Shown piece by piece: positions 43,329 to 59,389 of a stretch of 64,000 nucleotides of DNA. The notes under the pieces were generated by a model, which did not search any database, had not been told where the DNA came from, and saw only the letters and a program-made list of their open reading frames with translations. This DNA is from Wenjunlia tyrosinilytica. GTDB taxonomy: Bacteria; Actinomycetota; Actinomycetes; Streptomycetales; Streptomycetaceae. Both the position numbers and the translations under genes were made by a program. Position 1 is the stretch's first letter. Every line of letters starts with the position of its first letter. The DNA lies in the NCBI RefSeq assembly GCF_014646055.1, contig NZ_BMMS01000015.1, positions 124,001 through 188,000 on the forward strand, in the 5' to 3' direction.

Positions 43329-44852
43329 CTAACGGGCCGGGCCGGGGAGCGTCCGCCCCGGGCCCCGTCGCGCCGTCTCCGCCGCGGCGGCGATATTGCG
43401 GGCCATCCCGCCGAAGACGGTGGAGTGGAAGGGGGAGACGCTCCACCAGTAGGCATGACCGGCCAGCCCTCGCGGATGGAACAGTGCCCGCTGCCGGTAG
43501 CGCGAGCGCCCGGGCCCGTCCTCCTCGACGGCCAGTTCCAGCCAAGCCAGCCCCGGCAGCCGCATCTCCGCCCGCAGCCGCAGCAGGCGCCCCGGCTCGA
43601 TCGCCTCCACCCGCCAGAAGTCCAGCGCTTCGCCGACCCTCAGCCGTGCCGCGTCCCTGCGGCCGCGCCGCAGCCCCACACCGCCGACCATCCGGTCCAG
43701 GCCGCCGCGAACCGCCCAGGCCAGGGGGAACGAGTACCAGCCGTTCTCGCCGCCGATACCCTCGACCACCCGCCACAGCGTCTCCGGCGGCGCGTCCACC
43801 GGCCGGGTCCGCACATCCGTGTAGAGGCTCCCGCCCGCCCAGTCGGGGTCGGTGGGCAAGGGGTCGCTGGGCGCTCCGGGCACGGACGCGGAGGACCAGC
43901 GGGTGGCCACATCCGCTTCGCGGACCCGCTTCAGCGCCAGGCGCAGCGCCTCGTCCACGGAGACCGGACCGCCGGGCGGGTCGGGCACGTAGGCCGCGAT
44001 GTCGTGCCCGGCGCACACGACCTCGTGCCGCAGCGACTCCGCGAGCGGCCGCGCGATGGAGCCGGGCACGGGCGTCACCAGGCCCACCCACAGGCTGGAC
44101 AGCCTCGGGGTGAGCACCGGCACGGGCAGGATCACTCGCCGCGGCAGGCCGGCGACGGCCGCGTAACGCTGCATCATGTCCCGGTAGGTGAGGACGTCGG
44201 GGCCGCCGATGTCGAAGGCCCGGTTGACCTCGGGCGGCAGCCGCGCCGCTCCCACCAGGTACCGCAGCACATCCCGGACGGCGATCGGCTGGATGCGCGT
44301 GCGCACCCAGCTCGGCGTGACCATCACGGGCAGCCGCTCGGTCAGGTAGCGCAGCATCTCGAACGACGCCGACCCCGATCCGATGATCACCGCGGCCCTC
44401 AGGACGGCCGTGGGCACCCCCGAGCCGAGAAGGACGCGGCCCACCTCGGCGCGCGAGCGCAGATGCGGTGACAGTTCCTCCTCCGGGACGCCGTCGGGGG
44501 TGAGCCCGCCCAGGTAGACGATGCGCCGCACTCCCGCCGCACGCGCCCGCTCGCCGAAGGTCCGGGCGGCGCGGCGGTCGGTCTCCTCGAAGCCGCTTCC
44601 GGTGCCGAGCGCGTGGACGAGGTAGTAGGCCACGTCCACGCCCTCCATGGCCGCGCCCAGCGAGTCCGCGTCGGTGACGTCCCCGCGGACGCTTCGCACC
44701 TGCCCGGCCCAGGGGTGGTCGCGCAGCTTCTCCGGGGAGCGGGCCAGGCAGCGCACGCGGTGCCCGGCCCGGAGGAGCTCGGGCACGAGCCGGCCGCCGA
44801 TGTAGCCGGTGGCCCCCGTGACGAGGCAGTTCAATGGCGCTTCGTGGGACAT
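43329..44852 (-). CDS. Two-domain NAD(P)-binding SDR with DUF2867
   Basis: A 507-residue protein. The N-terminal half is an atypical SDR (NmrA/YbjT-like): CLVTGATGYIGGRLVPELL, VDVAYYLVHALGTG, RRIVYLGGLTPDG and AFDIGGPDVLTYRDMMQRYA. The C-terminal third (about residues 330-490) matches DUF2867: DVRTRPVDAPPETLWRVV, WYSFPLAWAVRGGLDRMVGG, ALDFWRVEAIEPGRLLRLRAEM and RALFHPRGLAGHAYWW, a SRPBCC-like fold. Such fusions are common in actinomycetes but their reaction is unknown; a redox or lipid-modifying role is a guess. It is divergent from the GntR gene across about 300 bases. Confidence 0.88.
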   Translation of the reverse strand: MSHEAPLNCLVTGATGYIGGRLVPELLRAGHRVRCLARSPEKLRDHPWAGQVRSVRGDVTDADSLGAAMEGVDVAYYLVHALGTGSGFEETDRRAARTFGERARAAGVRRIVYLGGLTPDGVPEEELSPHLRSRAEVGRVLLGSGVPTAVLRAAVIIGSGSASFEMLRYLTERLPVMVTPSWVRTRIQPIAVRDVLRYLVGAARLPPEVNRAFDIGGPDVLTYRDMMQRYAAVAGLPRRVILPVPVLTPRLSSLWVGLVTPVPGSIARPLAESLRHEVVCAGHDIAAYVPDPPGGPVSVDEALRLALKRVREADVATRWSSASVPGAPSDPLPTDPDWAGGSLYTDVRTRPVDAPPETLWRVVEGIGGENGWYSFPLAWAVRGGLDRMVGGVGLRRGRRDAARLRVGEALDFWRVEAIEPGRLLRLRAEMRLPGLAWLELAVEEDGPGRSRYRQRALFHPRGLAGHAYWWSVSPFHSTVFGGMARNIAAAAETARRGPGRTLPGPAR

Positions 44853-45154
44853 GTCGGCACACCTACCCGATTTGGGCGCCCGGCCTTCCGATCATGGCCG
44901 ACCGTGCTCCGGAAGGGGGGTTTCGGACAACGAGGGGTGCGGCGAGGACCCGCCCGGTGGCGCAATCGACTCGCCACGAGTGGTGCTCGCGGGTCTCGAA
45001 TGCTTGTCTCGACGGCGGCACGGACATTCGGGGGAAACGTGTGCATCCGCACCGGGTGCGGCGGGCCCCTGGCTCGTTCGACCCCAACGATCTGTACACG
45101 TTCCGCATTCGTATGATTGCCTGAAGTCACCTTGGTCGAAGCTGGGGGAGGATC
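44853..45154. other. Divergent spacer, SDR to GntR regulator
   Basis: 302 bases without a credible gene. It holds a perfect inverted repeat ccgcacc-g-ggtgcgg (about 45050-45064) and a TATGAT hexamer at 45112-45117 that could be the -10 of the GntR gene, although no good -35 is present at the correct distance. Either could be part of the GntR autoregulatory region. Confidence 0.4.
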
Positions 45155-45916
45155 GTGTCCGGACTCGATGTGCGCCGTCCGCAAGCCGGTCAGCGTTACC
45201 GGGCCATTTCGGAATCGTTGTGGACGGAGATCCGCAACGGTCAGATCCCGCCAGGAGGGCGGCTGCCCTCGGAGCGGACTCTCGCGACGCGCTACGGGGT
45301 GCACCGGCTGACCGTGCGCCGGGCGCTCCAGGAGTTGAAGGGGCAGGGGCTCGTCTACGCGGACCGGCGCGGCACATTCGCCCGGGAGCGGACGGCGCTC
45401 GCCTCGGTGGACCGCATGGCCGAGGCCCCCGCGCAGGACGGCTTCCCCGGGGGTATCGCCCTCCGGGAATCGGACACCCCTCGAGTGGCCTGGTTCGGCT
45501 TCGCCCCGGCCGCCGAGGAGCACCGCACGCTCCTGGGGGTGGAGGCGGGAGCCCGGGTGCTCGCGCACCACCACGAGGTGGTCGAGGGCGACCGGGTCGT
45601 GCAGGTGGCGACGTCGGCGTTCGGCTCGGCCGTCGTGGCCGAGGTGCCGCACCTGCTGCGGGAGTCCATCGCCGCCGCGGCCGGGCGTGAGCCCGATGTG
45701 CGCGACGCCTACCGGTGGATGCGCGACGCGGGGCTTCGGCCCCGGCGCAGGGACTCGGTGACCGTGCGGAACGCCCGGTCGGAGGGGGAGGGCGGTGCCG
45801 GGGTGGAGGGCCCGGTGATGGTCGTCTACCGGGTCGTGCGCGACCAGTACGGGCGCTCCCTGGCGACCACCCGCTTCGAGATCGCCGCCGACCGCGCCGA
45901 GCTGGTCTACGGCTAG
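45155..45916 (+). CDS. GntR-family transcriptional regulator (HutC/UTRA type)
   Basis: A 253-residue regulator. Residues about 10-75 form the GntR winged helix: GQRYRAISESLWTEIRNGQI, PSERTLATRYGVHRLTVRRALQEL and GLVYADRRGTFARER. The C-terminal half (about 90-250) is a UTRA-like effector domain with RVLAHHHEVVEGDRVVQVATS and MVVYRVVRDQYGRSLATTRFEI. HutC-type members sense sugars, amino acids or phosphonates. GTG at 45155 follows GGGGGAG. It is upstream of the desaturase in the same direction but with about 300 bases and a separate operator set between, so they are probably not co-transcribed. Confidence 0.9.
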   Translation: MSGLDVRRPQAGQRYRAISESLWTEIRNGQIPPGGRLPSERTLATRYGVHRLTVRRALQELKGQGLVYADRRGTFARERTALASVDRMAEAPAQDGFPGGIALRESDTPRVAWFGFAPAAEEHRTLLGVEAGARVLAHHHEVVEGDRVVQVATSAFGSAVVAEVPHLLRESIAAAAGREPDVRDAYRWMRDAGLRPRRRDSVTVRNARSEGEGGAGVEGPVMVVYRVVRDQYGRSLATTRFEIAADRAELVYG

Positions 45917-46156
45917 CGGGCGCCCCATGGACGGCCGGCGGGCGGACCGGGCTCGGGGCGGCCGCCGGCATCGTGGCCGCTGCTGCCGTCGCTACCCAGG
46001 TGAATCGATTCTGCTTGAACGGGTCCGGTGGAACGGTCCGGGCTCATGGGGCCGACAGGGGATCTGACGCACCGTCGATCAGTATTATATCCGTATATGT
46101 CGAGAGAAAAGTAAGGGTCCCAGAGGGCGGATGTTGCCATATCCGGGGTACGCAAC

Positions 46157-46186
46157 TTACGTTTGCGTAACCTACGGACCCGTAGG
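46157..46186. promoter_or_regulatory. Twin palindromes upstream of the acyl-ACP desaturase
   Basis: Two adjacent inverted repeats abut each other: ttacg-tttg-cgtaa (46157-46170) and cctacg-gacc-cgtagg (46171-46186). Allowing one mismatch, the second extends to a 24-base palindrome GTAACCTACG/CGTAGGTGAC. TetR-family regulators of actinobacterial fatty-acid desaturation recognise very similar TACG/CGTA palindromes (recalled from the literature). The site ends 27 bases before the start codon. Confidence 0.75.
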
Positions 46187-46212
46187 TGACAGCCGACCTC
46201 CCAGGAGTCACC

Positions 46213-47184
46213 GTGACCATTGCCCCCTCCCTCCACAGCAGCTCGGCGGCCTGGACCGACGCGCGGTTGCTGTACGCCCTGGAGGAGGTGGTGGAGACGG
46301 AACTCAATCGCCACCTGAAGGTCGCCAAGGAGTGGATGCCCCACGAGTACGTCCCGTGGAGCGACGGGCGGAACTTCGACGGGATCATGGGCGGGGACGC
46401 GTGGGAGCCGGAGCAGTCCAAGGTCAGCGAGATCGGCCGGATCGCCCTGGTGGTCAACCTCCTCACCGAGGACAACCTGCCCAGCTACCACCACGAGATC
46501 GCGTCCCTCTTCGGCCGTGACGGCGCCTGGGGCACCTGGGTGCACCGCTGGACGGCCGAGGAGGGCCGGCACGGGATCGTGATGCGCGACTACCTGCTGA
46601 CCAGCCGGGCGGTCGACCCCGTGGAGCTCGAGCGCTTCCGGATGGAGCACATGTCGGCCGGGTTCGAGTCCGACAACCGGCACAGCATGCTCCACTCGGT
46701 GGCCTACGTGGCCTTCCAGGAGCTCGCCACCCGGGTCTCGCACCGCAACACCGGCCACCTGTCCGGCGACCCCGTGTGCGACCGCATGCTCGCCCGGATA
46801 GCGACGGACGAGAACCTCCACATGGTCTTCTACCGCAACCTGCTCGCGGCGGCGCTCGAGCTCGCCCCCGACGAGTCCCTGCGGGCCATCGCCGACGTGG
46901 TGACCGGCTTCCGGATGCCCGGCCACGGCATGCCCGGCTTCGAGCGCTCGGCCGCCCGGATGGCCATAGGCGGCGTGTACAACCTGCGTATCCACCACGA
47001 CGACGTGCTCCAGCCGGTCCTGCGCCATCTGAAGGTGCTCGAGATCACCGGCCTCGGCCCCGAGGGCCTGAAGGCCCAGGAGGAGCTCGGGCAGTTCATG
47101 GGCGGCCTCGACAGCCAGGCCACGAAGTTCGACGAGCGGCGTGAGGCGTTCCTGGCCCGCCGCCAGGCGCGTTCCGAGAAGTAG
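46213..47184 (+). CDS. Acyl-[acyl-carrier-protein] desaturase (soluble di-iron)
   Basis: A 323-residue cytosolic desaturase that inserts a double bond in acyl-ACP, like plant stearoyl-ACP desaturase and mycobacterial DesA proteins. Di-iron ligands are visible: Glu in LEEVVETELNRHLK, the E-E-x-x-H motif in WTAEEGRHGIV, and the second D-E-N-L-H motif in ARIATDENLHMVFY. Length and all-helical pattern fit the family. The GTG at 46213 has AGGAG upstream and lies just after two strong palindromes. It needs an electron donor (ferredoxin and reductase), not encoded nearby. Expression is probably repressed by a TetR protein encoded elsewhere. Confidence 0.93.
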   Translation: MTIAPSLHSSSAAWTDARLLYALEEVVETELNRHLKVAKEWMPHEYVPWSDGRNFDGIMGGDAWEPEQSKVSEIGRIALVVNLLTEDNLPSYHHEIASLFGRDGAWGTWVHRWTAEEGRHGIVMRDYLLTSRAVDPVELERFRMEHMSAGFESDNRHSMLHSVAYVAFQELATRVSHRNTGHLSGDPVCDRMLARIATDENLHMVFYRNLLAAALELAPDESLRAIADVVTGFRMPGHGMPGFERSAARMAIGGVYNLRIHHDDVLQPVLRHLKVLEITGLGPEGLKAQEELGQFMGGLDSQATKFDERREAFLARRQARSEK

Positions 47185-47345
47185 CCGCCACCGGACGCCG
47201 GACAGCCGTCTCCCGGGCCTCCTGAGGGGCCCGGCGCGCCCTCCAGGCCCATCCAAGGGCACACGGCGCCGATCCCGGGGCGCTGGATCCGGGGCGCAAG
47301 GCGCACATCAGCGGGCGACGGCCTCAACGGGGGGAGGCCGCACCC

Positions 47346-47380
47346 GGGACCCCTTCGCAACCAACGGGACCCCTTCGCAA
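47346..47380. repeat. Two direct repeats, 15 bp at 20 bp spacing
   Basis: gggaccccttcgcaa occurs at 47346-47360 and 47366-47380, in the 288-base gap between the convergent desaturase and DMT transporter genes. A short hairpin (cgggcc/ggcccg, about 47217-47236) follows the desaturase stop and may terminate it. Nothing else of note is visible in the gap. Confidence 0.65.
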
Positions 47381-47472
47381 GCCCGGACCCGGTCCCGCCT
47401 CGCCCGACCCGGTCCAACGCCCTCAGCCCGTCTCAGCCGGGCACCGTTGCCGCGCGCCCCGCTCCGGCCCCC

Positions 47473-48366
47473 TCAGCGGGGAGCGGTCGACTCCAGGACG
47501 CGGTCGTGCTCGCCGGAGCCCCCCGTCGGCATCGCCGGATGGCGTCCGATCACCACGATCCCGGCCACGATGCACACCAGCCCCGCCGCCTCCAACGCCA
47601 GCGCCCCCGGGGTGACCCGCAGCCGGTCGCCGAGGAAGCCGACGCCGCACGCGATGCCGGCCAGCGGCTGGGCGGCGGTCAGAGCGGGCAGGGACATCCG
47701 CAGTGGGGCTGTCTCGAAGGCACTTTGGACCAGCACAAGGCCGGCCACTCCCAGCGCCAGGACGGCGTAGAGCTGCCAGCCGACCACCAGCCTCCCCAGG
47801 CCGCCTTGCGTGAACAGCTCGCCGGAGACCCGCGTCATGGCGTCCTGGAGCCCGTACAGCAGCCCCGCGGCCAGGGCCAGGACCGTGGCCTCCTCGCACA
47901 GCGGCAGCCGCCGCGCGAAGGCCGCCAGCAGTATCGCCAGCCCCACGACCACACCGAAGACCAGCCAGTGCCTCAGCGGCCCCGCCGGACCGCTGCCCTC
48001 CGTGGGCTGGCCGCCGATGATGAACGAGGTCACCCCCAGCGCCAGCAGGCACACCCCCGCCCAGCCCGTGCGCCCGAGCGGCTGCCTGGTCAGCCATCTG
48101 GACAGTGCCATGGCGAACAGCAGATTCGTCGCGGTCAGCGGCTCCACCGCGGAGACCGAGCCCATGGAGAGCGCGATCGCGCCCAGCACCTGTCCGCCGA
48201 TCACGCACGCCATGCCGATCAGCCACTGCGGCATCCGGGCCAGGTCGAGGAGCAGCCGCAGCGAGAGGAAATCGGACAGCGGAGCCTTCTGGGCGGCGTG
48301 CTGTTGCAGCACAAACCCGAGTCCCAGCAGGCACGCAGCTCCCACACCCAGCAGGAACACCGCCAC
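47473..48366 (-). CDS. DMT/EamA-type transporter
   Basis: A 297-residue integral membrane protein with about ten hydrophobic spans in two repeats of five, as in the drug/metabolite transporter superfamily. Example spans are LLGVGAACLLGLGFVL, LIGMACVIGGQVLGAIAL, AGVCLLALGVTSFIIGG, LVFGVVVGLAILLAAF, AVLALGVAGLVLVQ and LEAAGLVCIVAGIVVIG. The segment SAVEPLTATNLLFAMALSRWL is typical of the EamA first repeat. The substrate is unknown; members export or import amino acids, nucleosides and small metabolites. It is a single gene converging on the desaturase. Confidence 0.88.
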   Translation of the reverse strand: MAVFLLGVGAACLLGLGFVLQQHAAQKAPLSDFLSLRLLLDLARMPQWLIGMACVIGGQVLGAIALSMGSVSAVEPLTATNLLFAMALSRWLTRQPLGRTGWAGVCLLALGVTSFIIGGQPTEGSGPAGPLRHWLVFGVVVGLAILLAAFARRLPLCEEATVLALAAGLLYGLQDAMTRVSGELFTQGGLGRLVVGWQLYAVLALGVAGLVLVQSAFETAPLRMSLPALTAAQPLAGIACGVGFLGDRLRVTPGALALEAAGLVCIVAGIVVIGRHPAMPTGGSGEHDRVLESTAPR

Positions 48367-48517
48367 GTCTCACACCTCACATCACCGGCGCACCGGACCG
48401 CTGGCATCGAGACTAACCGGCGCGGCCGGGTCGCGTAGTGCCCTCGCCGCGGCCGGGCCGAACGCGACAGCCGCTCCGGGTCCGTTCCGGGTACCCCGCC
48501 CGGCGGTCGGCAGACGC

Positions 48518-48931
48518 TCAGCCCGGGAAGGCGTAGACCGTGCCCGCGCGGGCCGCCGGGTCGTCGGCGCCCTGCGCCGTCAGGGTGATGTCGATGAACG
48601 CGAGCTTGCGCCCGAGCTTGGTCACCCTGGCCGTGACCAGCACGTCCGCACCGACTACCGCCCGTTCGAACGTCGTGGACTGCTGGACCGTGGTCATGGG
48701 GCCGAAGCCGCCGAGCGCCGCGCTCACGGCGATCACCGACGCCGTGTCCGCCGCCGCCATCAGCGCCTGCCCCGACAGCGCCCCGCCCTCGCGGGCCAGC
48801 CGGTCCGACCAGGGCAGCCGAAGCACCGCGTGGCGCTCACCGGTCTCGACCGTGTACAGCCCCAGATCGCGCACCCACGGGGCGAAGTTCTCCTCGAGGA
48901 CCTTGTCGGCGTCGTCCGGCGTGAACGTCAT
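48518..48931 (-). CDS. PaaI-family (hotdog) thioesterase
   Basis: A 137-residue hotdog-fold protein that would hydrolyse acyl- or arylacetyl-CoA. Seen: the core EGGALSGQALMAAADTASVIAVSAAL, where the usual His-Gly-Gly entry is replaced by Glu-Gly-Gly, followed by the acidic helix (Asp in AAADTAS), then TTVQQSTTFERAVVGADVLVTARVTKLGRKLAFIDI. ATG at 48931 removes a non-conserved N-terminal leader present in a longer frame. A P450 remnant begins 56 bases away on the opposite strand. Confidence 0.87.
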   Translation of the reverse strand: MTFTPDDADKVLEENFAPWVRDLGLYTVETGERHAVLRLPWSDRLAREGGALSGQALMAAADTASVIAVSAALGGFGPMTTVQQSTTFERAVVGADVLVTARVTKLGRKLAFIDITLTAQGADDPAARAGTVYAFPG

Positions 48932-48986
48932 CCCGCCATTGTGTCCGGGCCTTGACGCGGCCACCAGGGCGCATACGTTCGCCCGG

Positions 48987-49240
48987 GTGAGCGCGTACGG
49001 CGACCTCGACGACGCGTTCCGGCCGCAGAGCTCTGACAAGGCGGTGCCCTACGGGCTCTTCCGCGAGCTGCGCGCCACCGGGCCCGTCCGCGGATCGGCG
49101 AGCCCGCGGTGGGAGCGTGGCCGCCCGGCCCCGGCCACTGGGCGGTCTTCCGCCACGCCGACGTCAAACACGTGCTGCGCGGCCCGGCGGAGTTCTCCTC
49201 CCACCTCGGCGCACATCCGGCCAGGACGCGAGTGAGGGCC
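48987..49240 (+). pseudogene. N-terminal remnant of a cytochrome P450, frameshifted
   Basis: From the GTG at 48987 the frame reads SAYGDLDDAFRPQSSDKAVP then YGLFRELRATGPVR. This continues, after a shift of frame near 49105-49112, as PGPGHWAVFRHADVKHVLRG and PAEFSSHLGAHPAR. Both parts are hallmarks of the first 80 residues of streptomycete P450s (YxxFxxLRxxGPV, WxVxRHADVxxVLR, FSSHLGA). Everything beyond that point (I-helix, ExxR, heme Cys) is absent; the following sequence to 49400 is unrelated. I infer a truncated and frameshifted relic. Confidence 0.7.
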
Positions 49241-49438
49241 GTGATCGGCCGGGCCGTCCGCCGTCCGAACGGCATCGAGCGGGCCGCCGAACCGGTCCGG
49301 ATGACGTCGAACCTCCAGAACGGCCTCGAGGGCCTGACGGTCCGCCGGCGTTCGGTGTCCAGGGCGTGAAGGCCGGGTTTCAACGCTTGTTGAACTGCGG
49401 TGGTCCACTCAGGGGTGCCGCACGGTTACTCTCTACTG

Positions 49439-50278
49439 GTGTCTCAGCGAAAACTGTTGGCGATCAGTGATCTGCATGTGGCGTTCCCGGAGAACCGGCA
49501 GATCGTCGAGGAACTGCGCCCGGAGTCCGACGAGGACTGGCTGATCGTCGCCGGTGACGTCGGCGAGATGGTCGAGAATGTCGACTGGGCGCTGGGTCTG
49601 CTGACCAAACGATTCGCCAAAGTCGTGTGGACGCCGGGCAACCACGAGCTGTGGACACCCCGCCGCGACCCTGTGCAGCTCAGGGGCGACGAGCGCTACC
49701 GCCATCTCGTCGAGGTGGCCCGCGGGCACGGCGCGCTGACGCCGGAGGACCCCTACGCCGTCTGGGACGGGCCCGGCGGCCCGGCCGTCATCGCCCCGCT
49801 GTTCGTGCTGTACGACTACACCTTCCGCACGGACACCGCCGCCGACAAGACGGAGTCGCTCGCCCAGGCCTACAAGGCCGGGGTGGTGTGCAGCGACGAG
49901 TTCCTGCTGCACCCGGACCCCTACCCGTCCAGGGACGCCTGGTGCAAGGCGCGGCTGAAGGAGACCGAGCAGCGCCTCGACGAGGCCTGCGGCAGCGGCA
50001 TCCCGTCCATCCTGGTCAACCACTACCCGCTGGTGCGCGAGCCCACGAGGATCCTGCACCACCCGGAGTTCGCCCAGTGGTGCGGCACCGTCCGGACGGC
50101 CGACTGGCATGTGCGCTACCACGCCAAGACCGTCGTCTACGGGCATCTGCACATCCCCCGCACGACCTGGTACGACGGTGTGCGCTTCGAGGAGGTGTCG
50201 GTCGGCTACCCGCGCGAGTGGAAGCGGCCGAGCCACCCGCGGACGGGGCTGCGCCAGATCCTGCCGATGCCGGGCTGA
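49439..50278 (+). CDS. Metallophosphoesterase
   Basis: A 279-residue calcineurin-type phosphoesterase. Metal-binding motifs are in order: LLAISDLHVAFPEN (D-x-H), DDWLIVAGDVGEMVEN-like GD motif (WLIVAGDVGE), VVWTPGNHELWTP (G-N-H-E), SILVNHYPLVREPTR (single His) and VVYGHLHIPRTTWYDG (G-H-x-H). All five are intact, so it should be active. In many streptomycetes a homologue sits beside a phosphopantetheinyl transferase; here the downstream neighbours are an ACP and FkbH on the opposite strand. GTG at 49439 begins directly at the conserved domain. The substrate is unknown. Confidence 0.9.
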   Translation: MSQRKLLAISDLHVAFPENRQIVEELRPESDEDWLIVAGDVGEMVENVDWALGLLTKRFAKVVWTPGNHELWTPRRDPVQLRGDERYRHLVEVARGHGALTPEDPYAVWDGPGGPAVIAPLFVLYDYTFRTDTAADKTESLAQAYKAGVVCSDEFLLHPDPYPSRDAWCKARLKETEQRLDEACGSGIPSILVNHYPLVREPTRILHHPEFAQWCGTVRTADWHVRYHAKTVVYGHLHIPRTTWYDGVRFEEVSVGYPREWKRPSHPRTGLRQILPMPG

Positions 50279-50361
50279 GACGCGGGGGTTCCGCACCGTC
50301 CCGGCCCGTGGGGGACCGGCCCGGCGCAAGATCATCCGGCGCGGATTGCCCGGCGTCCGGG

Positions 50362-50586
50362 TCAGGCCGCGGCCAGCCTGTACACGTGTTCGAGGCTTGT
50401 CGCCTCGAACAGCTCCGGCATGGGCAGCATCCGCCCGGTCTCGCGCTCCAGCAGCGCCACCAGGGAGAGCAGGTGGACGGAGTCCCAGCCGGGCAGGTCG
50501 TCCAGGGCGGCCGCGATGTTCTCGCGGGTCACCGGCAGCCCCAGCTCGTCGCGGACGAGGGCCACGAAGTCGTCGATGGTGTTCAC
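50362..50586 (-). CDS. Discrete acyl carrier protein
   Basis: A 74-residue free-standing ACP. The phosphopantetheine attachment serine is Ser36 in LPGWDSVHLLSLVALLER, where the usual D-S-L is D-S-V. The helix-two sequence, MLPMPELFEATSLEHVYRL and length are typical. GTG at 50586 overlaps the stop of the FkbH gene (GTGA), so the two are translationally coupled. This pairing fits the known role of FkbH: moving a phosphoglyceryl unit from 1,3-bisphosphoglycerate to an ACP to give glyceryl-ACP. No polyketide synthase or ketosynthase is in the window. Confidence 0.92.
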   Translation of the reverse strand: MNTIDDFVALVRDELGLPVTRENIAAALDDLPGWDSVHLLSLVALLERETGRMLPMPELFEATSLEHVYRLAAA

Positions 50587-52709
50587 GGGGCGGTCCCTTC
50601 CAGGGGCTGGGCCGGGGCGCCGGCCGACGTCGGCGGACTCTGCGTCAGATGCACGTGCCGCGGCGGCTCGAGGATGTCCGCCAGGTCGTGGCTGAACGTC
50701 CTCTCGCCCCCGGGTGGCGGGTGCGCGGCGGGTCCCGGCGCGGCCTCGACCGGCTCGAACCCCGCCTCCGGGTAGAAGCGCGCCACCTTCCCGTTCTTCG
50801 CCGAGGGCCGGTGGACGCCGAGCACCCTCGACGCCCCCGTCTCCCGGGCGTGGCGCAGCACCGCCGACAGGCAGGCCCGCTCGATGCCGCGGGAGAAGAC
50901 ACGGCAGCTGAGCAGGAAGTTCTCGATCCGTGCCGTGCCGCCCTCGCGCCGGACGAAGACGGCGCCGACCAGCCCGTTGTCCCCGAAGCGGTCGGCGGAG
51001 TGGATGGCGAGCACCCGTGCGGAGGGGTCCTCGGCCAGCGCGCGGACCTGCTCCGGCCCGAGGCGCTCGGTGGTGAGGTTGAACTGGTTGGTGCGCAGGG
51101 TCAGCTGGGAGATCCGGCCGAAGTCGGCCGGCCGCGCCTCGGCCAGCCGCACCCGGACGTCGAGCTCGGCCAGGTACTCCTCCAGCGAGTCGAATCCGTG
51201 CAGGAAGTCCCTGCGGACCAGCTCGTCGCGGTAGCGCTCCGGGCGCCGCACGTCCTCGGAGGTCAGCTCCCTGACGGTGAACCATCCGTCGGCGAGGAGC
51301 CGCCGGGCATGCAGCGCGGGCTCGCTGTCCAGGCCCACCACGGCCACGCCGGGCAGTTCCTTGCGCACCAGCCCGCACTCGTAGGGGCTGTCGTCGGCGA
51401 ACACCAGGCTGTCCGTACCGATGTTCAGGTCCTCCGCCAGCCCGGTGAGGTGCCCGTGCTTGGGTGCCCAGTCGGCGACGACCCGGACGAAGTCCTCCTC
51501 GCGCAGCGTCATACGGGGGTGGCCGCGCAGTACCTCGCGGACCGGCTCGATGTCGTTCTTGCTGACGGCGGCGAGCAGCACGCCCTGGGACGCCATCTGC
51601 TTGGCCGTGCGCTGGAAGGCGCGGAAGGCCTCTCCGCGGTAGCTGTCGGCGACCTCGATCCCCTCCGCGCCGACCTCGCCCAGCACGCCGCCCCACACCG
51701 TCCCGTCGAGGTCGAGTACCAGGCACTTGCTGGTGCGGCCGGTCAGATGGCGGGCCAGGTGCCCCGCCTCACGCGCGTAATCGATCAGAAGTTCTGTGGA
51801 CAGGTGTGCTTTGGCGTAGGCGCTCATCCTGGGGTCCGTGGCGGGGTGTGCGGATTCGGCCAGATGCGGGTCGAGGTCCAGGACGACGACCCGCGGATGA
51901 CGGTCCATGAGCCGCAGCAGGCGCGCGTTGGCCTCCCGCCAGGCCGCCCCGAGGCGTGCGCGTGAGCGCAGGTCGACCAGCTCGGCGGCGCGGCCGGGGG
52001 CCGGGGGAAGGGTGTTGAGGACCAGGGTGCCGCGCGCCGCTCCGTGGAAGGCCTCCGTGAGCCGCTCCAGCAGCGCCAGCTTCTCCTCCAGCACCCGTTC
52101 CACGTCCGAGGGCCGCCAGGGCGTGGGTACCTCGTCCCAGACCGCCTGGGCGTCGAGCACGCACAGCGTCAGATCGGGGTCGGCCGCGTACAGCCCGCTG
52201 CCGGGGTCGGACAGCTCGAAGACGTAGGAGCCGAAGTCGGTCGTGTGCAGGCGCGGCAGCAGGCCGTGGCGGGCGAACTGGGCCGCCAGGGCGGGCAGTA
52301 GCGCCGACAGCGTGCCATGGCCCGTGACCGCCACCGTGACGGCCTGGACCCGCGGGTGCTCTCTGAGGACCTCGTCGGGATCCAGACGCGACAGCAGCCG
52401 CCCCGCGCGCAGCAGGTCGGCGCCGCCGGCCCCGGCCAGCAGGGCACGCAGCTCGGGGTAGCGGGCAGCGAGCAGGCCGTCCCGGTGCAGCCGCGCGAGG
52501 CGCTCGGCGTGGCTCTCTGCCTGGCTTTCGGCGTGACTGTCTGCCTGGCTTTCGGCGTGGCTGACGGTGTGACTGTCTGCCTGGCTTTCGGCGCGACTGG
52601 CGGCGTGGCTGACGGCGCGACTGGCGGCGTGGCTGACGGCGCGACTGGCGGCGTGGCTGACGGGGTGGCTGTCGGCGGCCGACTCCCCGGTGCGGCCGGT
52701 GGCGTTCAT
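50583..52709 (-). CDS. FkbH-like HAD-IIIC enzyme (glyceryl-ACP formation)
   Basis: A 708-residue enzyme. Residues 14-69 are 14 tetrapeptide repeats (SHAA, SRAV, SQAD, SHAE types). Residues about 90-320 form an SGNH-like N-terminal domain with VAVTGHGTLSALLPALAAQF and VVVLDLDPHLA. From about 325 comes the HAD-IIIC domain with Asp333 and Asp335 in LVLDLDGTVWGGVLGEVG, AVSKNDIEPVREVLRGHP, WAPKHGHL and LVFADDSPYECGLVRKELP. A C-terminal GNAT-like part (about 530-680) has LRTNQFNLTTERL and GVHRPSAKNGKVARFYPEAGF. It loads glycerate units on the overlapping ACP. The ATG is preceded by AGGGGAG, so the repeats should be translated. The pair is an orphan in this window. Confidence 0.93.
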   Translation of the reverse strand: MNATGRTGESAADSHPVSHAASRAVSHAASRAVSHAASRAESQADSHTVSHAESQADSHAESQAESHAERLARLHRDGLLAARYPELRALLAGAGGADLLRAGRLLSRLDPDEVLREHPRVQAVTVAVTGHGTLSALLPALAAQFARHGLLPRLHTTDFGSYVFELSDPGSGLYAADPDLTLCVLDAQAVWDEVPTPWRPSDVERVLEEKLALLERLTEAFHGAARGTLVLNTLPPAPGRAAELVDLRSRARLGAAWREANARLLRLMDRHPRVVVLDLDPHLAESAHPATDPRMSAYAKAHLSTELLIDYAREAGHLARHLTGRTSKCLVLDLDGTVWGGVLGEVGAEGIEVADSYRGEAFRAFQRTAKQMASQGVLLAAVSKNDIEPVREVLRGHPRMTLREEDFVRVVADWAPKHGHLTGLAEDLNIGTDSLVFADDSPYECGLVRKELPGVAVVGLDSEPALHARRLLADGWFTVRELTSEDVRRPERYRDELVRRDFLHGFDSLEEYLAELDVRVRLAEARPADFGRISQLTLRTNQFNLTTERLGPEQVRALAEDPSARVLAIHSADRFGDNGLVGAVFVRREGGTARIENFLLSCRVFSRGIERACLSAVLRHARETGASRVLGVHRPSAKNGKVARFYPEAGFEPVEAAPGPAAHPPPGGERTFSHDLADILEPPRHVHLTQSPPTSAGAPAQPLEGTAP
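52503..52670. repeat. 12 bp/24 bp coding minisatellite in the FkbH N-terminus
   Basis: Fourteen consecutive 12 bp units encode S-[HRQ]-[A/P/T]-x tetrapeptides. Three consecutive 24 bp blocks encoding VSHAASRA are identical at the DNA level, followed by degenerate SQAD/SHTV/SHAE units. Unit length is a multiple of three, so copy-number change keeps the frame. Confidence 0.92.
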
Positions 52710-53083
52710 GGCTGGGCTCCCCTGGCGCTCGGGGCCGGTTCCGGACCGGCTGTGGAGCCCTCAGGCTGGCCAGGAGCGGTGGAGGTGCGGTCGAGCAGCG
52801 GGGAGCGGTGTCCAGGGCGCTCCACCGTGCGCTGAGCCTCGGCGCGTACCGTGATGGTCGTCTCCTCCGCCCGGCGGCCCGGCGACCACGCAGGTCGTAA
52901 AATAGGTTTCAATACCTGCCCAAACGGCTTGCGGGGCACGGCTGGATGGTTCAACCAAGCTGGTCGATTCCGTTTCCCGAGCAGTGGAGATCGGACCGGA
53001 GGTAGCCTTCGCTCGTAGTGTGTAGCCGATATGCCAACGGCAAGGGTGGCTGGAAACGCGCCCACACGAATCGGGAGAGCTCG
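52710..53083. other. Divergent spacer, FkbH to methyltransferase
   Basis: 374 bases with no credible gene. Near 52905-52920 there is a local AT-rich island (taaaataggtttcaatacct) containing the inverted pair aggt...acct, the most promoter-like stretch of the spacer. It could serve the FkbH gene. Upstream of the methyltransferase a TAGTGT hexamer near 53016 is a weak -10 candidate. Confidence 0.35.
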
Positions 53084-53884
53084 ATGGAACGGCCTGTCTG
53101 GGCACCGCACGGCATCGATCTGACGCGGCCGAGTGTGGCCCGTATGTACGACTACTACCTCGGTGGCTCGCACAACTTCGAGGTGGACCGGGCGGCCGCT
53201 CGTACGGCGCTCGAGGTGTGGCCGGATCTTCCCATGATCATGAGGGCCAATCGCGCGTTCATGCGACGGGCCGTGCGCTTCGCCGTCGACTCGGGCATCA
53301 AGCAGTTCCTCGACATCGGCTCGGGGATACCCACCTTCGGCAACGTACACGAGGTGGCCCGGGCGGCGGCTCCCGACGCCAGGGTGGTCTACGTCGACCA
53401 CGACCCGGTGGCGATCGCCCACAGCGAGGCCATCGTCGCCGACGACGACCAGACCTCGGTCCTGCAGGCCGACCTGCTCAAGCCCGACGACATCATCGGC
53501 TCCGAGGCGGTGCAAAGACTCATCGACGGGGGCGAGCCGGTCGCCCTGATGCTCGTGGCGCTCCTGCACTTCGTCGGAGACCAGGACAGCCCCCGCGACA
53601 TCGTGGCCAGGCTGCGCGACGCGCTGCCGCCCGGTAGCTGCCTGATCCTCACTCACGCGACCAACGAGGGCTACGCCGACCCGGCCGACGAGGAGCGGGA
53701 CGTCTACAAGCGCATGGGCAGCCCGCTGATCATGCGGACCCGCCAGGAGGTCCTGAGCTTCTTCGACGGGTTCGAGGTCGTGGACCCGGGGGTCGTCTTC
53801 TACAGCCAGTGGCGGCCGGACGCGGCCGACGAGGAGGACCCGGCACGGTACAGCGGTTATGCGGGCTTCGGACTGAAGCGGTGA
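53084..53884 (+). CDS. SAM-dependent methyltransferase, DUF574 (Methyltransf_19) family
   Basis: A 266-residue protein of the large streptomycete DUF574 family. The N-terminal signature IDLTRPSVARMYDYYLGGSHNFEVDR... is seen in short as RPSVARMYDYYLGGSHNFEV. The SAM motif region is FLDIGSGIPTFGNVHEVA with VVYVDHDPVAIAHS. LVALLHFVGDQDSPRDIVARL and the C-terminal VVFYSQWRPD are also typical. The substrate is unknown for the family. ATG at 53084 follows GGGAGAG. Its stop overlaps the start of the c-di-GMP protein (GTGA), so the pair is translationally coupled and may share a signalling role. Confidence 0.92.
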   Translation: MERPVWAPHGIDLTRPSVARMYDYYLGGSHNFEVDRAAARTALEVWPDLPMIMRANRAFMRRAVRFAVDSGIKQFLDIGSGIPTFGNVHEVARAAAPDARVVYVDHDPVAIAHSEAIVADDDQTSVLQADLLKPDDIIGSEAVQRLIDGGEPVALMLVALLHFVGDQDSPRDIVARLRDALPPGSCLILTHATNEGYADPADEERDVYKRMGSPLIMRTRQEVLSFFDGFEVVDPGVVFYSQWRPDAADEEDPARYSGYAGFGLKR

Positions 53885-56088
53885 GCCAAGTGCCTCCAGG
53901 GCCTTGGGCGGCGAGCGCCGCGCGCACCGACGACGGATCGGCGGACGACGGCATCCGCCGCTTCGCCGCGATCTGGAGCCGGGTCATCGACCCGTACACC
54001 GCCACCTCGATGACTCGTGCCGAGCTCGAGGAGCATCTGCTTCCGCTCACCAGGAGGCTCGCGGCCATCCTGGAGAGCGTCCCCTTCGATGTGAGGCCGG
54101 CCAAGGACATCGGCCGGGCGATGGTGCAGGCGCACTGCACCGACCCCCAGGTGCTCTCGCAGAGCCTGACGGTGATAGACGCCTATCTGCTGCTGTACCG
54201 GCCGCCGGCCGAGAGCCTGCCGCCGGAGGCGGCCAGGGGCCATCTCGCCCGTCTCCAGCACGCGTTCGCCGCGGGCTTCGCCGAGGCGCTGCGCGACCGC
54301 ACCCTCGCCGAGCAGGAGGCGATCGCGCATGCCTCCCTGGCCGCGCAGGCCAGGGCCGAGCGGGCGCTGCACGCCAGCGAGGCGCGCTTCCGCGCGCTGT
54401 TCGAGGGCGCCGCCATCGGCATCGGCATCAGCGACCTCGAGGGCAACATCCTCGACGTCAACGAGACGCTCGCCCGGATGTTCGGCGGCCGGGTGGAGGA
54501 GTTCCGCACCCGCAACGTCAATGAGTTCATGCACCCCGACGACGCTCCGCACGTGTGGAAGCAGTACCGGGAGCTGATCCGGGGCGAGCGCGACCACTAC
54601 CGGTTCGAGAAGCCGTACTTCACGCACAACGGCTCCGCCGTGTGGACGAATCTGACGGTCTCCCTCATCCGCGACCAGAACGGCACACCGCAGTACCAGG
54701 TCGCGATGATGGAGGACATCACCGAGCGCAAGCTGCTGACCGACCGGCTGCGCTACCAGGCGACCCACGACCCGCTGACCGGGCTGGGGAACCGTGCCCT
54801 GTTCTTCGAGCGGCTCGCCGAGGCGTTCGACAGCGGGGACGAGTCCACCCGGCTGGGCCTGTGCTATCTGGACCTCGACGGGTTCAAGGCCGTCAACGAC
54901 AGCCTGGGCCACGAGGCGGGGGACCGGCTCCTGGTGGCCGTGGCGGAACGGTTCACGGGTTGCCTGACGGGCCGCAACCAACTGGTGGCCAGGATGGGCG
55001 GCGACGAGTTCGTCGCCCTCGTCGTGGACCCCGACTGCCCCGAGGAGGTGGCCGGGCTCGCCCGCCGCTTCCTGGCCGCACTGGACGCGCCCGTGCGCAT
55101 CGACGGCCGCGAGCTGTCGGTCACGGTCAGCATCGGTCTGCTGGAGTGCACCGCCGCCTCCATGAAGGCGGCTCAGATGGTTCAGGCCGCCGACATCACG
55201 CTGTACCGGGCCAAGGCCCAGGGCGGCAACCGCCTCGCCGTCTTCGACGCCGAGGCCAACGCCCGTGAGATCACCCGCTACGGGCTGACGACCCGTCTGC
55301 CGGCGGCGCTGGAGGAGGGGGAGTTCTTCCTCGAGTACCAGCCGCTGGTCGCCCTCGGTGACGGCCGGGTGATGGGCGCCGAGGCCCTGGTGCGCTGGCG
55401 CCACCCGCAGCAGGGTGTGCTCGGTCCCGACCGCTTCGTCGCGCTCGCCGAGCAGACCGGCCTCATCGTGCCGCTGGGCTACTGGGTGCTGGAGCAGGCG
55501 TGCCGGCAGGCCCGTGCGTGGCAGCTCGAACTCGAGCAGGGCGCCCCGCGGATCAACGTCAACCTCTCGGTGCGCCAGGCGCGCAACCCCGGCCTGGTCA
55601 ACGATGTGGCGCGGATCCTGAAGGAGACCGAGCTGGACGCCTCGTCCCTGCACCTCGAGATCACCGAGAGCGCCCTGATCGGCGCCGAGGACCAGGCACT
55701 GGACGCGCTACGCGAGTTGACCGACATGGGCATCGGCCTGGCGCTGGACGACTTCGGCACCGGGTACTCCAACCTGTCCTACCTTCGGCGTATCCCGGTG
55801 CACACGCTGAAGATCGACCGCTCCTTCATCAGCGGCCTCCAGCATCCGGACGCCCCAGGCAACCCGCGGGACGAGAAGATCGTCGCGGGTCTGGTCTCGC
55901 TCGCCCACACTCTCGACCTCGCGGTCACGGTGGAAGGCGTGGAGACCGAGCTCCAGGCCGAGCGCATGCGCGCCCTGCAGTGCGAGACGGCACAGGGCTG
56001 GTACTTCGCCAGGCCCGGCCCGCCGGACCGCATCACCGCGCTGTGCGCCGCGGGGGCCGACCGCTGGACGGGCGGCGCCTGCGCGTAG
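53881..56088 (+). CDS. PAS-GGDEF-EAL bifunctional diguanylate cyclase/phosphodiesterase
   Basis: A 735-residue soluble c-di-GMP enzyme. Order: a helical N-terminal region (about 1-165), a PAS domain (about 165-290) with ALFEGAAIGIGISDLEGNI and a PAC tail MMEDITERKLL, a GGDEF domain (about 300-460) with an intact active site in ARMGGDEFVALV, and an EAL domain (about 475-720) with MGAEALVRWRHPQ, LHLEITESAL, ALDDFGTGYSNLSYL and VTVEGVETE. Key residues of both domains are present, so it could make and break c-di-GMP, the signal that binds BldD in streptomycetes. The layout resembles CdgA. GTG at 53881 overlaps the methyltransferase stop. Confidence 0.93.
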   Translation: MSQVPPGPWAASAARTDDGSADDGIRRFAAIWSRVIDPYTATSMTRAELEEHLLPLTRRLAAILESVPFDVRPAKDIGRAMVQAHCTDPQVLSQSLTVIDAYLLLYRPPAESLPPEAARGHLARLQHAFAAGFAEALRDRTLAEQEAIAHASLAAQARAERALHASEARFRALFEGAAIGIGISDLEGNILDVNETLARMFGGRVEEFRTRNVNEFMHPDDAPHVWKQYRELIRGERDHYRFEKPYFTHNGSAVWTNLTVSLIRDQNGTPQYQVAMMEDITERKLLTDRLRYQATHDPLTGLGNRALFFERLAEAFDSGDESTRLGLCYLDLDGFKAVNDSLGHEAGDRLLVAVAERFTGCLTGRNQLVARMGGDEFVALVVDPDCPEEVAGLARRFLAALDAPVRIDGRELSVTVSIGLLECTAASMKAAQMVQAADITLYRAKAQGGNRLAVFDAEANAREITRYGLTTRLPAALEEGEFFLEYQPLVALGDGRVMGAEALVRWRHPQQGVLGPDRFVALAEQTGLIVPLGYWVLEQACRQARAWQLELEQGAPRINVNLSVRQARNPGLVNDVARILKETELDASSLHLEITESALIGAEDQALDALRELTDMGIGLALDDFGTGYSNLSYLRRIPVHTLKIDRSFISGLQHPDAPGNPRDEKIVAGLVSLAHTLDLAVTVEGVETELQAERMRALQCETAQGWYFARPGPPDRITALCAAGADRWTGGACA

Positions 56089-56110
56089 GTTCAACCGCGT
56101 CGAAGGCCCG

Positions 56111-56159
56111 GAACGACCGGGCGCGCAGTCCCGGAAGGGGACGCGCGCCCCGGTCGTTC
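56111..56159. terminator. Long hairpin between convergent genes
   Basis: gaacgaccggg plus cgcgc (56111-56126) pairs with gcgcg plus cccggtcgttc (56143-56159), a 16 bp stem with one bulged C. It lies between the c-di-GMP gene (ends 56088) and the GH105 gene (ends 56206). Confidence 0.75.
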
Positions 56160-56205
56160 GGTGGGCCGGCCGGCCCGCGGGGGTGGGGCCCAGGGCCGCG
56201 GTGGC

Positions 56206-57453
56206 TCAACGCGGGTGCGCGAGCTGCTCGTTCATGATGAGGAACGCGCCCAGGCCGTGGAAGTCATTGGTGTTGCGCTTGCGGCCGTAGTAGTAGGCCA
56301 GGTCGCCCACGTTGGTGCCCTCGGAGATGTCCTCGATGTTCGTCAGCCCGTCCGAGCCCAGTGAGACCTTGCCCAGGACACCCGCGTACCCGCGGTCGGC
56401 GACGCCCTGGTAGGTGGCCGCGTCCACGTACCCCCGCTGCACCGCGCGCGAGACCATGAAGGTGTACATCGCCGACGCCGAGGTCTCCTGCCAGTTCCTG
56501 GAGTCCGACCCCTTGTCGACGACCTGGTACCAGCGTCCCGACGAGCTCTGGTGGCGCGCGTAGCCCTTCGCCAAGTGCCGGACGAAGCCGATCAGCTGCG
56601 GCCGCCTCGGGTGGCCCGCGGGCAGCACCTCGAGGATGTCGACGCACGCCATGCCGAACCAGCCGATGGCGCGCGCCCAGTGGTACTTCGAGTGGTGGCC
56701 CGTGCCCGAGGACCAGGACTCCGAGCCGTCCTCGTCGTAGGCGTGGTACAGCAGCCCGTTGGACGCCCGGAGGTGCTGGAAGTACACCGCCAGGTTCCTC
56801 GCCGACTCCTCGTACTCGTAGGCGCTGTCCACGTCGTTGTACGTCCTGCCGTACAGCGCCAGGAACGGCTGGGCCATGTAGACGCCGTCCGCCCACAGTT
56901 GGCCGGTCCTGCCCGTGGCGTGCCACATCCCGCCGTCGGAGGTGCGCGGGTAGTAGTCCGGGTCGGGCTTCTGGTTGAACCTCTTGCGCAGCTTGTCGGC
57001 CGCCTTCTTGTAGCGCGGGTCCCCGGTCTCCTTGTGCAGCAGGGGGAGCAGTTGCCCTGAGCGCATCGAGTCGAGGTTGCCGAAGCTGTTGCTGATACTG
57101 CCGTCGCTTTTGACGAACCGGTTTGCCCACCCGACGATGTAGTCGAGGTAGGCCCTGTTCCCCAGGCGCTTGTGGACCAGGTACTGGCCGTACAGGTACA
57201 GGCCCGTCGTGTAGCCCCAGCCGCCGAGGTCGGCCGGGGTGGGGTGCCGCTCGAGGGTCGAGTCCACGACGGCCTTGGACCAGTCGGTCGCCGCGGCCCG
57301 CGCCCCGGCGACCGCACCCGGCGGGGGAGTGCGCGGGGTGACGGAGGCCGCGATGGCGGCCGCGGAGGGCAGCGAGAGCGCGCCCAGCGCGCCGGCCGCG
57401 CCCAGAACGACGGACCGGCGCGCGGGACGGGATGTCTCGGACGGCGAGGACAT
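56206..57453 (-). CDS. Secreted GH105/GH88-like unsaturated rhamnogalacturonyl hydrolase
   Basis: A 415-residue exported hydrolase that would remove the unsaturated uronic acid left by pectin/rhamnogalacturonan lyases. The N-terminus is Tat-like (RPARRSVVLGAAGALGALS). The mature alpha/alpha barrel shows WGYTTGLYLYGQYLVHKRLG, DGGMWHATGRTGQLWADGVYMAQPFLA (the Asp of WADG matches the catalytic Asp of the family), GHHSKYHWARAIGWFGMACVDILEVLP and WYQVVDKGSDSRNWQETSASAMYTFM. ATG at 57453 separates it from the decayed GH28 frame upstream with which it is in-frame. Gene order suggests a former pectin-degradation pair. Confidence 0.9.
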   Translation of the reverse strand: MSSPSETSRPARRSVVLGAAGALGALSLPSAAAIAASVTPRTPPPGAVAGARAAATDWSKAVVDSTLERHPTPADLGGWGYTTGLYLYGQYLVHKRLGNRAYLDYIVGWANRFVKSDGSISNSFGNLDSMRSGQLLPLLHKETGDPRYKKAADKLRKRFNQKPDPDYYPRTSDGGMWHATGRTGQLWADGVYMAQPFLALYGRTYNDVDSAYEYEESARNLAVYFQHLRASNGLLYHAYDEDGSESWSSGTGHHSKYHWARAIGWFGMACVDILEVLPAGHPRRPQLIGFVRHLAKGYARHQSSSGRWYQVVDKGSDSRNWQETSASAMYTFMVSRAVQRGYVDAATYQGVADRGYAGVLGKVSLGSDGLTNIEDISEGTNVGDLAYYYGRKRNTNDFHGLGAFLIMNEQLAHPR

Positions 57454-57493
57454 GTGAGTGCGGCCCTTCTCTTCGCTTTGCTTGTCGCTGGAT

Positions 57494-58056
57494 TCAGACC
57501 TGGTTGACGTTGGCGCCGGCGTTCCTCGGCACGGTGTTGTCGCCGCACAGGGCGTGCTCGACGGGTAGCGGCCCGGGCGGTCGGGCGCGTTGACGAGGCG
57601 GTCGCGGGCGAAGATGTCGAGGATGCCTCCCGACATCCCACTGCCCACGGTGATCCCGCTCCAGCGGCCGGAGAGCCCGCGGCGCTCCACGGCCACATGG
57701 GTGGTCGGGATGCCGACCCGCCGTCCATCGGCATCCCGACCCGACTCGATGACGACGCGGTCGTCATGGGTGTTGAACCCGCTGTCCACGACAGGGGCGT
57801 CCGTGGTGGAGTCCGGATCCACCCCGTCGCCCTCGGCCGCACACACGAGGACGCTGAACACCCGGTCCGGGAACCGGGGCGCCCGGATCCGGTCGAGGGT
57901 GGCCGGTGCCCTCTCCCACGGGTCCGGGCCGGCCGCGACCGCGGGCCCCGTGCCCGCGAGCGCCGGGCGCCCGAGACCGCTCCCGGCGACGAGCGCACCA
58001 CCGGTCACCAGGGCCGCGGTCCTGGCGAACTCGCGCCGAGAGGGCGTGCTGGTCAC
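57494..58056 (-). pseudogene. GH28 (polygalacturonase-type) pseudogene, internally deleted
   Basis: From ATG 58056 the frame encodes a Tat signal (PSRREFARTAALVTGGALVA) and the GH28 start DRIRAPRFPDRVFSV. It then jumps directly to VDSGFNTHDDRVVIESGRDA, GRRVGIPTTHVAVERRGL and GRWSGITVGSGMSGGILDIF. In intact GH28 enzymes these blocks are separated by well over 100 residues, so a large internal deletion removed the middle. After RPGRYP a one-base shift gives VEHALCGDNTVPRNAGA to a TGA at 57494-57496, while the current frame runs on into the GH105 gene. HDD retains the catalytic Asp pair region, but the fold is incomplete. Confidence 0.75.
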
Positions 58057-58097
58057 TGGCGCTCCTTGTGATGCGCTGACGATGGAATGAAAGCGGT

Positions 58098-58111
58098 TGC
58101 ATGTACATGCA
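58098..58111. promoter_or_regulatory. Perfect 14 bp palindrome upstream of the GH28 remnant
   Basis: tgcatgtacatgca is fully palindromic, 42-55 bases upstream of the pseudogene start, preceded by gaaagcggttgc, which resembles a LacI-family half-site. It probably belonged to the control region of the pectin genes and may still drive the GH105 gene. Confidence 0.55.
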
Positions 58112-58148
58112 GAGCTCTACTCCTGCTGATCCCGCCGCGTCAAGAAGT

Positions 58149-58231
58149 GGTCAGACCTTTCTTTGTTCTTTTGTGTTGAGCCATGCCTTGATTCGATGGA
58201 ATCCAGTCAGGGTCATAGGATAGGTCAGACC
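58149..58231. promoter_or_regulatory. Two GGTCAGACC palindromes, 74 bp apart
   Basis: ggtcagacc occurs at 58149-58157 and 58223-58231, each followed by t. GGTC-N-GACC is the core of operators for FadR-type GntR repressors (TGGTCNGACCA). Both lie in the spacer between the GH28 remnant and the LysR gene. A 74 bp separation, close to seven helical turns, would allow looping. Confidence 0.5.
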
Positions 58232-58298
58232 TCATGGGAATATTGAAGGGCAGGTCGGCGCCCTCCGCGCCGCTGGCGAGAACTCGCCGGTGATCGCG

Positions 58299-59189: not shown

Positions 59190-59204
59190 GACCCTCTTCA
59201 CCCT

Positions 59205-59283: not shown

Positions 59284-59389
59284 CCCGGAGAACAGTGTCA
59301 TCCGATCCATCTGTTGGACAGAGTAGAGGTGGGACCGCAGGCTGGAGGTCCCGCCAACCGCGCAACCGCGACTCGAGGAGACCCGGACC

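Follow-up and report, generated by a model that had tools for sequence, protein, structure and literature searches.

The window, a stretch of 64,000 nucleotides from Wenjunlia tyrosinilytica, encodes an FkbH-type enzyme and a discrete acyl carrier protein (ACP) that, judged from sequence, rather probably form a detached, xenologous tetronate glyceryl-ACP module serving in trans a cluster on another contig (C12) of the same genome. The C12 cluster lacks exactly FkbH and its ACP. All five genes of the tetronate glycerate-utilization operon are present in the genome (the window contributes FkbH and ACP, and C12 the KASIII, E2 acyltransferase and hydrolase), not in one cluster but on two contigs and at least ~133 kb apart. 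FkbH-family enzymes load a glyceryl group from 1,3-bisphosphoglycerate onto a co-encoded ACP, and the pair in the window has the following anatomy:

50583 to 52709, minus strand: FkbH-type glyceryl transferase/phosphatase (708 aa; TIGR01686)
50362 to 50586, minus strand: discrete acyl carrier protein (74 aa; PF00550)
50583 to 50586, minus strand: GTGA shared by the end of the FkbH gene and the start of the ACP gene, read from the sequence

Both genes are intact, bearing out the earlier note's description of a complete FkbH and a discrete ACP overlapping by GTGA. In profile searches, TIGR01686 matched residues 326 to 652 of the FkbH (E 3.2e-81, 273 bits against a cut-off of 146.65), and the protein aligns over approximately residues 60 to 690, N-terminal domain included, with the FkbHs of KASIII-linked clusters at 48 to 65% identity. 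This full-length homology places it in the long tetronate-type class; the C-terminal-only FkbH class matches it at 30 to 37%. The ACP matched PF00550 (E 3.4e-6, 27.6 bits against a cut-off of 20.8) and retains the phosphopantetheine serine, Ser36 (codon 50479-50481), within a W-D-S motif invariant among 11 aligned ACPs. Of 222 columns with ≥90% conservation across 23 relatives, the FkbH deviates at 11 and the other rows at 3 to 26.

We surveyed the surroundings of related pairs in two overlapping sets, 71 family/order loci and the best 80 named loci among the matches listed, in stretches of mostly ~13 to 22 kb that were shorter at contig ends. The 4-nt overlap is the commonest FkbH/ACP spacing, found in 35 of 51 adjacent same-strand pairs from the 71 loci and in 50 of 64 from the best 80 named loci among the matches listed. 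KASIII occurred in 38 of the 71 loci (2 of these, L038 and L112, have a distant KASIII type), PKS in 54 and neither in 12. Corresponding counts for the best 80 named loci among the matches listed were 56, 50 and 13, and 46 of these loci carry KASIII, acyltransferase, hydrolase and ACP together. The expectation that the pair would lack a linked PKS in related genomes is contradicted for the family, since KASIII and/or PKS lies near 59 of the 71 family/order loci and 67 of the 80 best named loci listed. Because KASIII or PKS adjoins most surveyed loci, FkbH-ACP pairs of this type are mostly the glyceryl-loading part of tetronate cassettes, this FkbH type often occurring in FabH/KASIII–FkbH–ACP–acyltransferase–hydrolase sets with a PKS. 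The named loci include those of Streptomyces abyssomicinicus (L199), S. olivaceus (L240) and Actinomadura kijaniata (L232), such species presumably making abyssomicin-, lobophorin- and kijanimicin-type tetronates.

The genome of the window (G000) is a draft of 172 contigs, and its C12 cluster comprises FAAL, two acyl-CoA dehydrogenases (ACADs), ACP, KS-AT-ACP, KASIII, acyltransferase, PPTase, flavin monooxygenase (FMO), hydrolase and a divergently oriented P450. The earlier note had treated the pair as an orphan without a polyketide partner, which does not hold for the genome as a whole: this KASIII/KS-AT cluster lacks precisely the two genes found in the window. There is one strong tetronate-type KASIII in the genome (C12:145131-146177, 57%, E 8e-99; 65 of 65 candidates scored), the second-best match reaching 31% (E 3e-18), and one strong E2-type acyltransferase (C12:144088-144849, E 5e-65; 52 of 52 scored). 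Between these two C12 genes, where relatives hold FkbH and ACP, lies a gap of 257 bp in which we found low-complexity sequence and no FkbH or ACP remnant. Clusters of the C12 type in G008, G103, G292 and G067 (L041, L146, L148 and L149) have FkbH and ACP right after KASIII. The genome yielded no second FkbH at E ≤ 0.001 (26 of 26 candidates scored) and no second ACP of the window type at E ≤ 0.01 (13 of 13 scored). The C12 gap, made up of CAG/CGGCAGCAACGA-type sequence, is possibly a scar of FkbH-ACP loss.

At each of 56 columns with ≥95% conservation across 36 relatives, C119 among them, the C12 KASIII is unchanged, and the KS motif reads DTACSSS. The AT of the KS-AT protein (L086, G000:C12, 6184-9132) reads GHGCG in place of GHSxG, so that the active-site serine is gone and the domain may be dead; malonyl loading may therefore occur in trans, or the C12 cluster may be failing. 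The same serine is missing in L148 and L149, which are clusters with FkbH, and in L286, a pattern suggesting that FAAL-type tetronate clusters have lost AT activity more than once.

We propose that the FkbH transfers the glyceryl group from 1,3-bisphosphoglycerate to the window ACP, and that the resulting glyceryl-ACP would act in trans as a substrate of the FabH-like KASIII of C12. After docking, this KASIII would join glyceryl-ACP to a β-ketoacyl chain with closure of a tetronate ring, and the C12 acyltransferase and hydrolase would then acetylate and eliminate to give an exocyclic methylene, making a tetronate the predicted product class. C12 has no FkbH-ACP of its own, and the replacement would be of canonical spirotetronate-type origin. 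Supply in trans is plausible given the published cross-compatibility of glyceryl-ACP components: one study describes Tmn16 loading both Tmn7a and ChlD2 and the in vivo interchange of ACP and acyltransferase homologs of two tetronate clusters (PMC3625739), so that foreign glyceryl-ACPs can evidently work. For a strain with two glyceryl-ACP pools, another paper treats their interchangeability as an open question (PMC7489565).

A foreign origin of the pair is suggested by the FkbH phylogeny. In a quick tree of 72 rows, the C12-type FkbHs (L041, L146, L148 and L149) form a clade with support of 100, apart from the 31-row set containing the window enzyme (98). An AU test over all 72 rows did not reject holding the window enzyme with the C12-type FkbHs (p 0.141); it was rejected (p 0.0025) with a careful search of 37 of the 72 rows, a set chosen after the first result had been seen and leaving out the long-branch row L041. 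In the 37-row tree, the window enzyme and the satellite FkbHs of G169 (L100) and G174 (L102) fall within a 23-row canonical clade (99/99), with the FAAL-type natives elsewhere. A simple relocation of C12's own FkbH-ACP was rejected on the trees and the 37-row AU test, the first AU test giving no rejection. The C12 KASIII falls in no well-supported clade; the phylogenetic case thus rests on FkbH, and the kinship of C12 to L041-type clusters rests on gene order and the best identities of PPTase, hydrolase and FMO. The window pair is likely a xenologous replacement from the canonical spirotetronate-type branch. The earlier note had left a choice between a stand-alone module working in trans and the last remains of a cluster; the former now has a specific candidate partner in the same genome, and both may hold, as the phylogeny is compatible with the pair being left over from a different, canonical tetronate cluster and now supplying C12.

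The immediate surroundings of the pair contain the following features:

49400 to 50278, plus strand: metallophosphoesterase (PF00149)
53018 to 53884, plus strand: SAM-dependent methyltransferase (PF04672)
53809 to 56088, plus strand: GGDEF-EAL protein (profile search)
50239 to 52957, no strand: block without a blastn match to the same-genus genome G001 (inserted here or deleted there)

Metallophosphoesterase, methyltransferase and c-di-GMP enzyme had been named as neighbors and are confirmed as such, and a supposed P450 remnant is weakly supported, amounting to one 29-aa match (55% identity, E 6e-6) and nothing in Pfam with E up to 1. The reported absence of a PKS holds within the window: neither a PKS nor a KASIII was apparent by eye among 49 called genes, part of which were profile-searched, and none of the whole-genome KASIII/ketosynthase matches lies inside it. 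Over C15:4001-225409, on the contig that carries the window, tblastn queries for tetronate KASIII, acyltransferase, hydrolase, FAAL and KS-AT gave nothing above the applied thresholds, the nearest FabF/FabH-like matches (C15:60-62 kb) being ~112 kb from the pair. In G001 the same three genes are adjacent and in the same order, with 72 to 81% protein identity, and FkbH and ACP are missing. Similarity by blastn stops at 50238 and restarts at 52958, the matching spacing in G001 being 333 bp, and no FkbH was found anywhere in the G001 genome (21 of 21 candidates scored). We found no tRNA at 44000-62000 and no convincing repeats flanking the pair. In this comparison of two genomes, gain in the window genome is favored, though not with certainty, over loss in G001 because the phylogeny of the pair is foreign and G001 is FkbH free.

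It is unlikely that the pair is a relic, left over from a lost canonical tetronate cluster or transferred as a lone piece and with no present role in a pathway. Such a relic would account for the grouping of the pair with canonical cassettes, for the lack of other cassette genes near it and for its absence from G001. However, both genes are intact with their translational overlap kept, the FkbH deviates no more than its relatives do, and the exact fit to the genes missing from C12 would have to be a coincidence.

Slightly less likely again is a different client within the genome, with glyceryl-ACP feeding another assembly line such as a modular PKS or NRPS. The genome has 77 matches to ketosynthase domains, and 3 of 10 tested genomes hold an FkbH-ACP pair of the subfamily without a KASIII at E 1e-40, which indicates that other uses of the pair exist; the pairs of G423 and G424 adjoin NRPS-like genes, and that of G425 is L224. 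No assembly-line gene adjoins the window pair, however, unlike those at L234, L249 and L224, and the enzyme is of the long tetronate type, not the C-terminal-only class. The FkbG-K methoxymalonyl-ACP subcluster likewise combines FkbH with a discrete ACP and is also a proposed former of glyceryl-ACP, but the two dehydrogenases and O-methyltransferase that adjoin FkbH-ACP there were not seen among the genes adjacent to the window pair, whose sole neighboring methyltransferase is kept in G001 without the pair. By eye, the pairs at L249 (Actinoplanes sp. KI2) and L234 (Actinomadura sp. NBRC 104425) lie among NRPS-like, glycosyltransferase-like or radical-SAM-like genes in genomes without a KASIII match, and a nontetronate use of glycerate is possible there. 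Sister named loci with neither KASIII nor PKS in their stretch were considered as truly KASIII-free cases and mostly discarded, 7 of the genomes of 10 loci checked having a KASIII. It is on FkbH's own contig in G418, G421, G422, G426 and G427 (= G397), G420 has a complete cassette elsewhere (L174), and only G419 is split.

An assembly or sampling artifact, with the pair truly beside C12 or a C12 FkbH lost from the draft, is very improbable: the draft has many contigs, but C12 reads without N across KASIII and acyltransferase, and the pair is embedded in sequence syntenic with G001, with 48.7 kb to the closer end of its contig and 84 kb between the KASIII and the end of C12; the minimum separation given above follows from these distances. 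We give equally little weight to a local partnership of the pair with the PptH-like metallophosphoesterase, the methyltransferase or the c-di-GMP enzyme, for which it speaks that the phosphoesterase gene is convergent with the ACP gene, 83 bp away, and has orthologs adjoining PPTase genes, and against which all three neighbors stand together in G001 without FkbH or ACP; on this empty site we rejected a local function with the phosphoesterase.

Supply of C12 in trans by a detached pair would not be a unique arrangement. Among 394 family genomes, FkbH (E ≤ 1e-60) occurs in at least 81, KASIII in at least 70 and both in at least 69 (Fisher p 4e-63), counts that are lower bounds with 2 FkbH and 5 KASIII candidates scored per genome. 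Of 81 KASIII places, 39 have an FkbH no more than 5 kb away and another 25 have one up to 60 kb away, and one first listed at 71 kb from the nearest FkbH proved on full scoring to have one beside it. The remaining 16 comprise G178, which has its own FkbH, five at or near contig edges or on short contigs, G006, and nine FkbH-less clusters in genomes with a tetronate-class FkbH elsewhere (G000, G169, G174, G065, G077, G085, G102, G117 and G078). G006 has a KASIII and no tetronate-class FkbH (25 of 25 candidates scored). Streptomyces oryzae (G169) has a main cluster without FkbH and E2 acyltransferase, both held by its satellite, and the main clusters of G065, G077 and G085 lack FkbH and FMO, the satellite being FMO-FkbH; the main-cluster ACP of G065 was found by blastp and missed by tblastn at E 1e-6. 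Some acyltransferase loci also matched the hydrolase query, whose set included a few acyltransferase rows, and were read as acyltransferase. In G174, FkbH and ACP are missing from the main cluster and present in a satellite within an AMP-ligase gene group; because the same kind of group occurs in G425 without a KASIII, G174 need not be a split and is counted as doubtful. In G102, G117 and G078, the FkbH belongs to another cluster of the genome, a complete one. Outside the family, the only FkbH of Actinomadura rayongensis (G419; 27 of 27 scored) lies at C1:749803, with 750 kb to the closer contig end, and its KASIII-hydrolase-PKS cluster on C11 has no FkbH, acyltransferase or ACP in 40 kb, an incomplete case in that the ACP was found at neither place.

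Where the only KASIII clusters of a genome lack FkbH, 6 of 7 genomes have an FkbH elsewhere, against 12 of 324 KASIII-free genomes (p 7e-8), or 4 of 5 if the G065 group is counted as one (p 2e-5); both p values are only indicative because the groups were drawn after the data had been seen. We tentatively suggest, at somewhat short of an even chance, that the native FkbH has disappeared from the FAAL-type tetronate clusters of several lineages, alone or together with ACP, acyltransferase or monooxygenase, and that these clusters depend on a distant, sometimes xenologous satellite, that in G102, G117 and G078 one FkbH may serve a second cluster, and that glyceryl-ACP supply is a detachable, exchangeable trans module. 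G178 was dropped as a fifth split, its KASIII at C1:7781030 having an FkbH alongside with all candidates scored, and G082, G398, G322, G382 and G161 were set aside as contig edges could explain the separation. In G102, G117 and G078 (L284 and L285 among them) the second cluster, with a KASIII and no FkbH, is of the FAAL type, so one FkbH may serve two pathways. Searches of the open PMC literature, which mostly leaves out subscription journals, gave no paper that we recognized as describing a split tetronate cluster, a weak negative.

The tetronate glycerate-utilization operons (abyA1-A5; mad7/8/16/17/18; the RK-682 and agglomerin genes) likewise combine an FkbH of ~620 aa or more, a discrete ACP, KASIII, an E2-like acyltransferase and an α/β hydrolase; in the window genome, FkbH and ACP differ in lying on another contig than the other three and in belonging to another FkbH branch. 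According to PMC3625739, AbyA2 has 622 aa and AbyA3 78 aa. Unclustered lanthipeptide proteases, as described in PMC8960859, also complete a pathway from elsewhere in the genome, the detached part here being instead a substrate-loading enzyme and its carrier protein. The tetronate pathway usually resides in one cluster and appears to be split in the window genome and a few others.

To our knowledge, FkbH, ACP and FabH have been described as a set common to every tetronate cluster, and genome mining equates one cluster with one pathway. Should the split be real, a cluster without FkbH would wrongly be taken for a broken one and a lone FkbH-ACP pair for junk, and heterologous expression of such clusters would not succeed unless the satellite were included. 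Loading modules swapped again and again would also be natural evidence that the KASIII step tolerates foreign carrier proteins, which is relevant to tetronate engineering.

Across the order, orthologs of the window metallophosphoesterase are 58 to 79% identical and have a PPTase gene next to them in 11 of 11 neighbors tested (picked by look from 18 other loci), one such PPTase resembling PptT/Npt at a profile score below the cut-off. By PF00149 and this pairing of its orthologs, the protein recalls Mycobacterium tuberculosis PptH, which strips phosphopantetheine from carrier proteins according to PMC8557913. Unlike its orthologs, the window gene has no PPTase beside it and faces the ACP gene. 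Other copies in the genome lie at C35:15505-16323 and C46:6396-6890, one intact at 63% and one in two pieces.

An AlphaFold model of the FkbH (mean pLDDT 79.6) comprises SGNH-like, HAD and GNAT domains, encoded as follows:

51738 to 52349, minus strand: N-terminal SGNH/GDSL-like fold, residues 121-324 (AlphaFold, pLDDT mostly 70-95)
51276 to 51728, minus strand: HAD phosphatase fold, residues 328-478, with D333-x-D335-x-T337 (TIGR01681 and structure match)
50676 to 51161, minus strand: GNAT fold, residues 517-678 (GNAT chains at Z about 14-16)
52504 to 52677, minus strand: 12/24/36-bp tandem repeat encoding a low-complexity N-terminal extension (TRF, repeat search, pLDDT)

In structure comparisons of the model, the SGNH-like domain matched EstL5 (8ik1_B: Z 15.0, rmsd 3.4, 189 aligned) and the HAD domain matched MDP-1 (1u7o: Z 15.0, rmsd 2.4, 134 aligned), and the nearest solved relative of the protein is a HAD-containing fragment from Bacteroides fragilis (3slr), matched by residues 95-479 at Z 22.7. 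As the GNAT domain accounts for most VIA-align rows, statements on the fold of the other parts rest on few rows; by profile the GNAT domain matched PF00583 at E 0.0055, under its curated cut-off. D333, D335 and T337 are invariant in both FkbH alignments (A1 and A3). Residues 1-63, encoded by the tandem repeat, have a pLDDT under 50 and are predicted to be disordered. This extension is built of S-H-A-x-S-R-A-type repeats and is missing in most aligned relatives.
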